Translations under genes and position numbers: made by a program
Source: Acinetobacter kyonggiensis
GTDB taxonomy: Bacteria; Pseudomonadota; Gammaproteobacteria; Pseudomonadales; Moraxellaceae
Direction of reading: 5' to 3'
DNA: 64,000 nucleotides
NCBI RefSeq assembly: GCF_900107285.1
Contig: NZ_FNPK01000017.1
Location: forward strand, 1 to 64,000
Part shown: positions 37,494 through 40,401 of the stretch, piece after piece
Layout: the number at the start of each line of letters is the position of its first letter
Position numbering within the stretch: position 1 is the stretch's first letter
Notes under the pieces: generated by a model
The model's database searches: none
What the model saw: only the letters and a program-made list of their open reading frames with translations
What the model was told of the DNA's origin: nothing

Positions 37494-38555
37494 TTAAGCA
37501 CTACGTTTCAATTGAGACACACGTAGGGAGTTTGCTACATCTAATAAAAGTTGATGTGTTTTATCCCAACCTAAACAACCATCTGTTACAGATTGACCAT
37601 ACGTCATTTCACATGAAATTTTTTGCTGCCCATCTTGTAAATGACTTTCTAGCATCACACCACGTACATTGGTGTGTGCACGTTCAGCCACAATGGTACG
37701 TAACACTTCAGCTTGCACTAATGGGTTTTTATGACTGTTACCGTGACTACAATCAATCACTAAAGCGGGTAATTCAGCTTTGCTTTTTGCTTTAATTTTT
37801 TCAATTTCAGCCAATTGATAATTAGGACCTGAATTTGCACCACGTAAAATCAAGTGTGCTGCTCTATTGCCTTGTGATTCCAAAACACAAGGTAAACCAG
37901 ACTGGCTAATGCCCATGAACTGGTGTGAGTGAGATGCAGATTGAATCGCATCAAGTGCAATTTGAATTGAGCCATCCGTGCCATTTTTGAAACCAATGCT
38001 GTATGGCATGTGGCTTGAAATTTCACGATGAACTTGTGATTCACTGGTACGTGCACCTATTGCACCCCAAGCCAGTAAGTCATCGAAATAAGCTGTTGCC
38101 ATAGGGCTTAAAATTTCAGCTGCAATCGGCAAACCCATATCAATAATTTGTAAATACAACTCACGTGATTTTTCTAAGCCCAATTGCATATTCGATGAAT
38201 TATCTAAATTTGGGTCATATAGAAAACCTTTCCAACCAATCGTGGTACGTGGTTTTTCAATATATGCACGCATGACGAGGAAAATTTGATCTGAGACTTG
38301 GCTTTGTAATTGTTGTATTTTTTGAGCATATTCAAGTGCAGAAATGGGGTCATGAATTGAACATGGACCTGTCACAATCATCAAACGATGATCTTTGCCT
38401 TCTAAAATATTTTGAATTGTCTGACGCTGATCGGCAATTTGTTGCGCCAATTTTGCAGACAAAGGCAATTGCGCCTTCAATTGATAAGGCAAGCTTAAAA
38501 TGGTTTCTTTTGTAGTCGTTTGAGTCTGTTGTAAAGCAGTATTTAAAGCATTCAT
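37494..38555 (-). CDS. aroG: 3-deoxy-7-phosphoheptulonate synthase, class I
   Basis: The enzyme makes DAHP from phosphoenolpyruvate and erythrose 4-phosphate, the first shikimate step. The 353-residue protein has MIVTGPCSIHDPISALEYAQ (about 59-78), VMRAYIEKPRTTIGWKGFLY, GARTSESQVHREISS, the GFKNGTDGSI loop and LVIDCSHGNSHKNP. This is the Phe/Tyr/Trp-regulated class I type. On the upstream side lies a transcribed leader with two aromatic-rich peptides and an attenuator (38593-38857), so expression is probably set by charged aromatic tRNAs. tyrB follows on the other strand, so an aromatic-metabolism cluster is likely. Confidence 0.95.
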   Translation of the reverse strand: MNALNTALQQTQTTTKETILSLPYQLKAQLPLSAKLAQQIADQRQTIQNILEGKDHRLMIVTGPCSIHDPISALEYAQKIQQLQSQVSDQIFLVMRAYIEKPRTTIGWKGFLYDPNLDNSSNMQLGLEKSRELYLQIIDMGLPIAAEILSPMATAYFDDLLAWGAIGARTSESQVHREISSHMPYSIGFKNGTDGSIQIALDAIQSASHSHQFMGISQSGLPCVLESQGNRAAHLILRGANSGPNYQLAEIEKIKAKSKAELPALVIDCSHGNSHKNPLVQAEVLRTIVAERAHTNVRGVMLESHLQDGQQKISCEMTYGQSVTDGCLGWDKTHQLLLDVANSLRVSQLKRSA

Positions 38556-38592
38556 GGAACTTTCCTAGGGACTGTTTTTTCAGTCCAATCTT

Positions 38593-38688
38593 TTATTTGA
38601 GCGTTATGGGTCTAATGGATTGCGTCATCATTTGATTAAAGTAAAACCAATAAAAGTTGCTAAAATATGAATAAGTTAATGTTTTCAT
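38593..38688 (-). CDS. second aromatic leader peptide upstream of aroG
   Basis: The 31-residue frame begins MKTLTYSYFSNFYWFYFNQM and ends with SIRPITLK. Nine of twelve residues from Tyr6 to Phe17 are aromatic (YSYFSNFYWFYF). A strong site (TGGAG, seven bases before the ATG) supports translation. The frame ends 37 bases before the aroG start, and between them the hairpin GGACTG-AAAAAA-CAGTCC lies against the aroG ribosome site. Ribosome stalling in the Tyr/Phe/Trp run could therefore change access to aroG. The function is inferred. Confidence 0.75.
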   Translation of the reverse strand: MKTLTYSYFSNFYWFYFNQMMTQSIRPITLK

Positions 38689-38723
38689 GAGGTAACTCCA
38701 AAAAGTGTAAAAAAATAAAGCAT

Positions 38724-38785
38724 AAAAAAACCTGATCAGGGTTGCCGATCAGGTATTAACTTGGTGGGCAACCATTTTTTGCCCG
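38724..38785 (-). promoter_or_regulatory. attenuator of aroG: terminator and competing hairpins
   Basis: In transcript order: GGGCAA pairs with TTGCCC (1:2); GGTTGCC (38767-38773) pairs with GGCAACC (38740-38746) as an antiterminator (2:3); ACCTGATC (38747-38754) pairs with GATCAGGT (38730-38737), followed by a run of seven Ts, the terminator (3:4). Strands 2 and 3 compete exactly as in trp/phe attenuators. It lies 15 bases after the first leader peptide. Confidence 0.85.
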
Positions 38786-38800
38786 AACGCATTCAGGCAA

Positions 38801-38857
38801 TTATCTAAATTGCCAAAAATAATAAGTCGCGTTTGAGATTGCTGGTTGCTTTAACAT
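38801..38857 (-). CDS. first aroG leader peptide (YYFWQF-rich)
   Basis: The 18-residue peptide reads MLKQPAISNATYYFWQFR: five of its last seven residues are Tyr, Tyr, Phe, Trp and Phe. A GAAG stretch lies eight bases upstream. Its stop is just before strand 1 of the attenuator. When charged Tyr, Phe or Trp tRNA is short, a ribosome stalled here would cover strand 1 and favour the antiterminator, raising aroG expression. This is the classical ribosome-mediated arrangement. Confidence 0.85.
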   Translation of the reverse strand: MLKQPAISNATYYFWQFR

Positions 38858-39195
38858 CTTTATTTCTTCAAAAAAGTATGTGTCTTGAGATAAAAATACG
38901 CTGTATTTATACATTTGACAATAGTTTTATACAAAATAAAATGACATAAATCAGTTAATCTTTACTTAACTTAGACCTATGGAACATTTCTGATTGCGGT
39001 CAAGGTCATCAAATGCATTTTGCCATAAACACAGCATATGCTTGATTCAACATCCCCTATTTTGAATCAATTATGTCTTAAAATAAGCAAGTTTAAAAAT
39101 AAGAAAATAACAGACAATCCATTGGCATTAAAAGATAAAATACAGTCGATAGCAAAAGCTTAATTTGTTTACTACATATAATGAAGGATGTATTC

Positions 39196-40401
39196 ATGTT
39201 CCAACATGTTGATACTTATGCAGGTGATCCGATTCTTTCTTTGATGGAAGAGTTTGGTAAAGATGAACGGACAAACAAAGTTAACTTAAGTATTGGGCTT
39301 TATTACAATGAGGACAATATTGTTCCGCAGCTCAATGCCATTAAAGCCGCATATAAAAACATTGAACCAAGCAATGACAAGGTCAAACTGTATTTACCCA
39401 TGGATGGTTTGAAATCTTATAATGCAGCAACTCAAGCACTTGTTTTAGGCGAAAATAGCCAAGCTCGCCTAGAGGGTCGTGCAGTGACCATTCAAACTTT
39501 AGGTGGCTCTGGTGCGCTTAAAGTCGGTGCAGATTTCTTAAAAAAATATTTTCCTGAATCCGATGTTTGGGTCAGCCAACCAACTTGGGAAAACCATATT
39601 GCGATCTTTAATGGCGCAGGAATTCACTCGCACTTTTATCCTTACTTTGATGCTGCAACCAACGGTGTAAATGTTGCTGAAATGCTGGAAAAATTAAGTA
39701 AACTTCCAGCTAAAAGCATTGTGTTATTACACCCTTGTTGTCATAACCCGACAGGTGCAGATTTAACCCCTGCTGAATGGGATCAAGTGATTGAAGTATT
39801 AAAAAAACAAGACCTAATTCCATTTTTAGATATTGCCTATCAAGGTTTTGGTCAAGGTTTAGAAGAAGATGCGTATGCGATTCGCGCTTTAGATCAATCA
39901 GGAATGAATTTTATTGTCAGTAATTCATTCTCTAAAATTTTCTCGCTTTATGGTGAGCGTGTGGGTGGCTTAACGTTTGTCTGCGATGATCAAGCCACGG
40001 CACAAAAAGTATTGGGGCAGCTTAAAGCTACTGTACGTCGTATCTATTCAAGCCCAGCAACGACTGGTGCATTATTGGTCGATAACGTACTTAATGATGC
40101 GGATCTCACTGCACAGTGGGAAGCTGAGCTGAAAGAAATGCGTGAACGTATTATTAAAATGCGTCATATTTTAAATGACAAATTAAGCCAAGCGTTGCCT
40201 GAACATGACTTTAGTTATTTGGTTAAACAACAAGGTATGTTTAGCTATACAGGTTTAACGGCTGAACAAGTCGATATTTTAAAAGACAAATACGGTATTT
40301 ATTTAGTGCGTAGTGGTCGTATGTGTGCCGCGGGTTTGAACTTAAATAATATTGATTATGTTGCTGAGTCTATTGCCGAAGTGATTAAAGCAACCGCTTA
40401 A
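39196..40401 (+). CDS. tyrB: aromatic amino acid aminotransferase
   Basis: The start at 39196 follows AAGGATG; a start 15 bases earlier (39181) lacks a site. The 401-residue class I aminotransferase has [40 protein letters not shown], the PLP-lysine segment [20 protein letters not shown] and the end [13 protein letters not shown]. It interconverts tyrosine, phenylalanine and their keto acids (with aspartate/glutamate as donor), the last step of aromatic synthesis. It is divergent from aroG. Confidence 0.93.

Follow-up and report, generated by a model that had tools for sequence, protein, structure and literature searches.

A conserved leader with two aromatic-rich reading frames and a putative two-stage attenuator upstream of a DAHP synthase gene in Acinetobacter

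The window analyzed here, a stretch of 64,000 nucleotides from Acinetobacter kyonggiensis, carries on its minus strand a gene encoding a DAHP synthase ('aroG'). The protein passes the family models TIGR00034 aroFGH (407 bits for a cut-off of 173.2) and PRK12755 (475 bits for a cut-off of 343) and also matches PF00793. Its score is below the cut-offs of both the AroG and the AroH models, and the family models therefore leave its isozyme class unfixed. Divergently from the aroG leader, positions 39181-40401 of the plus strand encode an aromatic amino acid transaminase (PRK09257, 567 bits), so that a single intergenic region serves genes for the first step and for a last step of aromatic synthesis. 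A preliminary description of this DNA had placed an aromatic leader peptide, an attenuator and a second aromatic peptide at 38556-38870; all the elements that it described are present, on the minus strand. The features of the region are listed from the promoter to the gene:

38893-38921, minus strand: predicted promoter, TTGTCA - 17 nt - TATTTT, expected start near 38886
38801-38857, minus strand: leader peptide 1 (frame 1), MLKQPAISNATYYFWQFR and stop, 18 codons
38810-38814, minus strand: segment A, GGCAA within the Trp-Gln codons of frame 1, partner of B (or D)
38792-38800, minus strand: segment B, UUGCCUGAA, immediately 3' of the frame 1 stop, partner of A or C
38779-38787, minus strand: segment C, UUCGGGCAA, partner of B or D
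38766-38773, minus strand: segment D, GGUUGCCC, partner of C (or A), or of E (antiterminator)
38740-38746, minus strand: segment E, GGCAACC, part of the terminator, partner of D
38724-38754, minus strand: intrinsic terminator, ACCUGAUCGGCAACCCUGAUCAGGU and U tract (stem 38754-38730, T7 38730-38724)
38696-38699, minus strand: Shine-Dalgarno GGAG of leader peptide 2, seven bases ahead of its ATG
38593-38688, minus strand: leader peptide 2 (frame 2), MKTLTYSYFSNFYWFYFNQMMTQSIRPITLK and stop, 31 codons
38638-38673, minus strand: aromatic core of frame 2, YSYFSNFYWFYF, with its Trp codon at 38649-38647
38592-38615, minus strand: C-rich, G-poor conserved block around the frame 2 stop, UUAGACCCAUAACGCUCAAAUAAA
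38569-38586, minus strand: hairpin GGACUG-AAAAAA-CAGUCC, directly ahead of the aroG Shine-Dalgarno
38563-38566, minus strand: Shine-Dalgarno AGGA of the DAHP synthase gene
37494-38555, minus strand: DAHP synthase gene ('aroG'), 353 amino acids, class I, assigned by family models

Frame 1 has the 18 codons initially attributed to it, but its product ends in YYFWQFR and not in YYFWQF; the predicted sensing codons are UAU UAU UUU UGG. The ATG of a 37-codon version of this frame, at 38914, sits within the predicted promoter (38921-38893). The terminal T tract and the 31-codon second frame, with its aromatic core and its good ribosome site, were found as described. The core of frame 2 holds nine aromatic residues in 12, and frame 2 is the sole frame with at least eight among the 910 ATG frames of 12-45 codons within the window (the next best has seven); it is preceded by a Shine-Dalgarno sequence, as are only 51 of these 910 frames. 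The hairpin that had been located at the aroG start exists (38586-38569) but lies 14-31 bases upstream of this start, just before the Shine-Dalgarno sequence. It is the only structure that RNAalifold predicts on an alignment of 49 leaders of the genus, which omits L050-L055; each of its five pairs is formed in 46-49 of the 49 leaders and two pairs are doubly changed, in one sequence each. The dinucleotide CC stands right before the start codon in 18 of 49 aroG genes (10 of 28 distinct ones) compared to 4 of 45 window genes, aroG itself included among the 45; this enrichment is suggestive only.

The aroG orthologue (at least 53% identity) was found in 55 of the 59 Acinetobacter genomes searched, the other four having only a paralogue (about 44-47% identity), and it is also present in further genomes of the genus beyond the 55 whose leaders were read. 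Comparison of these 55 leaders, one of the checks proposed in the preliminary description, revealed that all of them carry frame 1 with a short aromatic run closing with Trp, the terminator and, past the terminator, the second frame (frame 1 of L028 and frame 2 of L052 being taken from the alignment or a recount and not from the parser). In L047, the second frame is shifted by a one-base deletion while the rest of the leader is intact; this deletion is either a sequencing error or a real loss. A promoter of the form TTGnnA-17-TAnnnT precedes frame 1 in 52 of the 55 leaders, with the exact TTGTCA in 49; this pattern was not found in L050, L051 and L054. Frame 2 has on average 32 residues, 8.7 of which are aromatic (range 5-10; 54 parsed frames, including a wrong frame for L052, whose right frame 2 has 29 residues). 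It contains Trp in 51 of the 55 leaders: L051, L052 and L053 have none, and the Trp of L047 is out of frame because of the shift. When rows are anchored on this core Trp (L026 being omitted, and L047 omitted upstream of Trp), the aromatic residues of the core are mostly kept. Four sites around Trp are almost constant (Tyr in 47/47, Phe in 47/47, Tyr in 46/48 and Phe in 47/48) and another one is Phe in only 25/47. At one core Tyr, the third base alone varies (UAU in 28 and UAC in 19 of 47); the third base of Tyr codons varies at two core sites in all, and Phe is almost always encoded by UUU. The bases near the frame 2 stop (CTCAAATAAA) are almost invariant in the 49 aligned Acinetobacter leaders (L001-L049). 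Many Pseudomonas leaders have a different conserved block at this place, CGAACAC, for which P. fluorescens types show weak pairing (0.37) to the beginning of the core.

Concerning the stems of the attenuator, a chain of alternative helices among repeated GGCAA/UUGCC blocks (A to E) describes them better than the competing 1:2, 2:3 and 3:4 helices initially proposed. RNA folding, also proposed as a check, indicates that the leader folds better than its shuffles, with z = -2.8 for the 351-nt minus-strand leader and z = -3.8 for the 92-nt attenuator; the plus strand of the leader is also well folded (z = -4.1), since inverted repeats fold on either strand. Pairing was then evaluated on an alignment of 55 rows, 50 of them distinct. 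In the terminating state (A:B, C:D and terminator), 96.1% of the cells are paired, reaching 100% for the terminator stem, and in the antiterminating state (B:C and D:E) 93.6% are paired; slid versions of the helices give 18-55%. Three pairs of the terminating state have both sides changed, a number reached by only one of 500 shuffles. The antiterminating state has two doubly changed pairs, which is no excess, since at least two also arise in 171 of 500 shuffles and in several slid versions. Many helix pairs are invariant across this alignment, and these tallies count sequences and not events. Overall, both alternative states are conserved, with modest covariation.

These data show the anatomy of his- or trp-type attenuators: (i) a predicted short frame rich in codons of the amino acids produced, (ii) mutually exclusive conserved helices with these codons in the first segment and (iii) an intrinsic terminator ahead of a gene of the same pathway. 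Since A lies in the Trp-Gln codons and B directly past the stop, a ribosome at Trp would free B and a ribosome at the stop would cover it. The folding calculation adds another terminating fold, in which A:D encloses B:C, and at equilibrium it prefers the terminator in every state. In a nascent RNA ending at E, D:E forms with a probability of 0.99-1.00, be A or B covered or free, because the calculation ignores time and thus the chance that C or A captures D first; the switch would therefore rest on the order of folding. A his-type attenuator is strongly supported by the anatomy and its conservation, the switch itself being what we infer from them. The first level of control that had been proposed, termination governed by Tyr, Phe and Trp codons, thus draws strong support from the conserved promoter, frame, alternative structures and terminator, and we consider that the first half of the leader very probably acts by ribosome-mediated transcription attenuation at these codons.

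This type of leader extends beyond Acinetobacter. No Rfam family matches the window at gathering thresholds. At E-values up to 10, eight matches were obtained in the window, and P15 (E = 0.035) was the only one that seemed meaningful. It corresponds to RF00627, 'Pseudomonas sRNA P15', which lies over the attenuator with 20.8 bits, far below the cut-off of 70 that defines membership, and RF00627 has no match at E = 0.001 in the window's own genome. Searching 115 genomes of the order with RF00627 gave a match in seven, four of them above the cut-off of 70. Each of the seven is located immediately upstream of a DAHP synthase gene and on the same strand, with an aromatic frame ahead of the terminator. 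A second aromatic frame follows the terminator at six of these seven loci (e.g. MNTTYYRYYRNSDWRFSS...) and ends shortly before the gene; it is absent from L060, and that of L062 is aromatic-poor (Y, W and F once each). A scan with Rfam of eight chosen loci before DAHP synthase genes found four that reach the RF00627 cut-off, including L110 (Pseudomonas protegens), L114 (Pseudomonas sp.) and L089 (Stutzerimonas).

The core of the second frame, TGGCGATTTA, is present in 9 of the 18 further orthologues of the order whose upstream DNA was analyzed. The best 80 loci of a scan belong to Pseudomonas, Stutzerimonas, Halopseudomonas, Halomonas, Chromohalobacter, Salinicola, Cobetia and others. A script applied to these 80 loci placed the gene in 78 (including L144, which has no upstream DNA); it recognized frame 1 at 60 loci, the terminator at 67 and frame 2 at 65. 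A recount based on the enzyme's own motif gave 73 loci whose core belongs to a frame starting with ATG; the other seven are four Salinicola loci without the core, L144, and L130 and L140, in which the enzyme motif was not found (L140 does have the core, some 100 bases ahead of the match). In total, 88 of 105 non-Acinetobacter loci have the core in a frame that starts with ATG and precedes the gene. These 105 loci include the best 80 and are not independent, some genomes occurring twice. Its ten bases (Trp-Arg-Phe) are exact in these 88 loci (L056-L162) and the Arg codon is always CGA; this exact recurrence may exceed what the peptide alone requires. The core was not found in L060, L069, L070, L074, L076-L080 and in the Salinicola loci L150 and L152-L154. 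The leaders devoid of core that were individually read keep frame 1 and the terminator and are natural single-stage versions.

Taken together, these distributions show that the tandem arrangement is older than the genus Acinetobacter. The leader of the window is a relative of P15 by its position and anatomy, but not a member of this family. Judging from the loci compared here, the P15 element would itself be the attenuator leader of the DAHP synthase gene. P15 reportedly originates from a 2006 paper. A remark on this element based on synteny was already made in a 2008 paper. In the passages that mention PA1750, it is named only as a shikimate or aroG gene.

Only one DAHP synthase may be controlled in this way. 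Paralogous genes, one in the same genome (L081, G000:C28) and the other at L082, have no upstream aromatic attenuator or terminator visible by eye, so that perhaps a single enzyme of the two is under the control of a tandem leader. Among the matches listed, genomes of the family outside the genus have at most one DAHP synthase match each, with 44-47% identity. Three DAHP synthase matches contain in-frame stops (two TAA in G006, one TGA in G027 and one TAA in G117), which may reflect either matches running past the end of the gene or broken genes.

Frame 2 is transcribed only after the decision of the first terminator and is thus unable to act on it. It could act on the ribosome site of aroG, and its core was compared with native and shuffled ribosome sites (significance at p of 0.05 or less). 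A significant duplex between the core and this site was obtained for 12 of 37 distinct Acinetobacter leaders and 9 of 15 leaders of the aeruginosa/stutzeri type, compared to 3 of 35 of the P. fluorescens type and none of 19 others; the duplex of the window does not exceed its shuffles (p = 0.34). Where the duplex is present, its letters are not the same from clade to clade (UUGGU:ACCAA versus CUGGCG:CGCCAG), which looks like compensation. Exchanging the ribosome sites between leaders (without L050-L055 and with 14 non-Acinetobacter leaders) did not distinguish native from swapped sites, either inside the genus (675 of 5000 permutations did as well) or inside the non-Acinetobacter set (533 of 5000). 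Across clades, native sites beat swapped ones (1 of 5000), but G+C content confounds this comparison. When the core is masked, the ribosome site becomes cheaper to open, by more than 0.5 kcal/mol, in 28 of 46 genus leaders and 5 of 14 others; in the leader of the window, the opening cost rises from 6.5 to 7.9. The native opening cost is above the mean of synonymous shuffles in 30 of the 46 genus leaders and 6 of the 14 others. A separate alignment suggested weak pairing of the core, either to the last part of frame 2 or to the ribosome site (mean probability of about 0.36 at most). A helix between the core and the ribosome site has a mean probability of 0.56 in 22 leaders of the aeruginosa/stutzeri type and does not exceed 0.3 in 39 leaders of the P. 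fluorescens type and 11 of the Halomonas type.

A single universal helix between the core and the ribosome site was rejected as a model of this step by the duplex, swap and masking tests. Predicted pairing that would hide the ribosome site, as in erm-type leaders, has support in some clades and not in the window. The second level of control initially proposed, access to aroG translation, is plausible, the frame lying past the terminator and being retained as aromatic-rich, and its core being able to pair with the site in several clades, but this pairing is not significant in the window, in 32 of 35 leaders of the P. fluorescens type and in 19 of 19 others. Overall, frame 2 is probably a translated aromatic sensor acting after read-through; whether its mode of action would be access to the aroG ribosome site is about an even bet.

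The reading that we favor, with a probability of roughly 0.6, is that a two-stage leader couples the output of DAHP synthase to the charging of the tRNAs for Tyr, Phe and Trp. Judging from the conserved anatomy, transcription would start near 38886 with a ribosome trailing along the frame of peptide 1. With charged aromatic tRNAs, this ribosome would reach the stop and cover A and B, C:D would form, and the terminator would release a short RNA. If it stalls at the Tyr-Tyr-Phe-Trp codons, A would be covered, B:C would form and D would capture E before the terminator closes, allowing read-through. Without a ribosome, A:B together with C:D (or A:D around B:C) would lead to termination. At the second and less certain stage, the read-through transcripts would bear an aromatic-rich frame just ahead of the gene. 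Most likely, a ribosome stalled in the core would hold the aroG ribosome site open, and an unstalled one would let the core and the flanking RNA fold onto this site. The synthesis of AroG would then need a shortage of aromatic amino acids at both checkpoints. We give equal chances for and against the wider proposal that the same three charged tRNAs are checked twice in series (by termination and then by access to the ribosome site in the transcripts that pass), that this is kept across Acinetobacter and genera of the Pseudomonas and Halomonas types, and that the released first half is the sRNA P15 of Rfam.

Three other explanations have to be weighed. The first half of the leader could be the only regulatory one, the translation of frame 2 merely coupling ribosomes to aroG or protecting the message and its aromatic bias being a remnant. 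Several relatives indeed retain the first stage without frame 2, and no one base-pairing accounts for frame 2 in every clade; we nevertheless consider this unlikely, frame 2 being aromatic-rich in all the Acinetobacter leaders read and in distant genera that otherwise differ in sequence. Somewhat more doubtful still is that frame 2 belongs to a second transcription attenuator dependent on Rho, comparable to the mgtCBR leader of Salmonella, which, in the passages available of PMC3641672, has two frames and stems unlike intrinsic terminators and for which Rho is raised as a possibility. The stretch from the core to the hairpin is C-rich and G-poor (C/G of 2.19 in 49 Acinetobacter leaders and 1.62 in 82 others) and no U tract follows it. 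However, a ribosome stalled in the core would bare this C-rich stretch and favor Rho, which is the wrong sign for a shortage of aromatic amino acids, unless an unseen structure hides the stretch.

Finally, the first half of the leader could be mainly a trans-acting small RNA similar to P15, the leader frames being incidental, as the Rfam entry of the homologous Pseudomonas element as an sRNA would suggest. This is very improbable, given the position and content of all seven matches (7/7 directly before DAHP synthase, with leader frame and terminator) and the synteny remark of the 2008 paper; besides, the attenuator itself would yield a released short RNA.

DAHP synthase controls the entry of the shikimate pathway. 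If the two-stage reading is true, serial double attenuation would explain how aromatic flux is set through charged tRNA, and the relatives that retain or lack the second checkpoint would offer a natural test of why two checkpoints beat one. It would also give a concrete function to the RNA family P15, so far filed as an sRNA. Among the open-access papers listed by the literature search, no title or abstract start dealt with an aromatic leader before a DAHP synthase gene of Acinetobacter or Pseudomonas or with P15 as its attenuator; an earlier description is possible in the subscription literature, outside the scope of this search. A text search of the main text of a survey of premature terminators (PMC2965389) found no aroG, aroF, DAHP or Acinetobacter.

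The leader of the his operon of enterobacteria works by ribosome-mediated transcription attenuation. Like the aroG leader, it has a short frame in which the regulated amino acids are encoded, an intrinsic terminator and a biosynthetic gene downstream, as well as a chain of alternating helices (A:B, C:D and terminator versus B:C and D:E). Unlike it, the aroG leader has many codons for each of three amino acids, stands at the head of their common pathway and has a second aromatic frame past the terminator. To our knowledge, such a tandem layout is unusual among attenuators, as the preliminary description had pointed out, but it is normal for this DAHP synthase gene (55 of 55 leaders of the genus, and the core in 88 of 105 others). 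RF00627 P15 resembles the leader of the window in lying before a homologous DAHP synthase gene and in having an aromatic frame, stems, a terminator and usually a second frame; Rfam describes it as an sRNA, and the name and description shown mention no leader frame.

In ermB, stalling alters the access to the ribosome site of the gene, the inducer being erythromycin and not uncharged tRNA, and we know of no transcription-terminator stage in this system. According to the passages available of PMC8274638, translation attenuation of ermB depends on two leader peptides, a pair like that of aroG. The mgtCBR leader of Salmonella carries, in the passages available of PMC3641672, the tandem attenuators mgtM and mgtP that sense ATP and proline. 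As described there, it shares with the aroG leader two short frames, the second of which is codon-biased and senses charged tRNA, and a stem possibly hiding the ribosome site of the gene (PMC3641672). Its two frames respond to different signals, whereas those of aroG would respond to the same three amino acids, and its stems are unlike intrinsic terminators, whereas one such terminator separates the aroG frames (same passages of PMC3641672). The tandem attenuators of mgtCBR would be the closest known serial layout to that proposed here for aroG.
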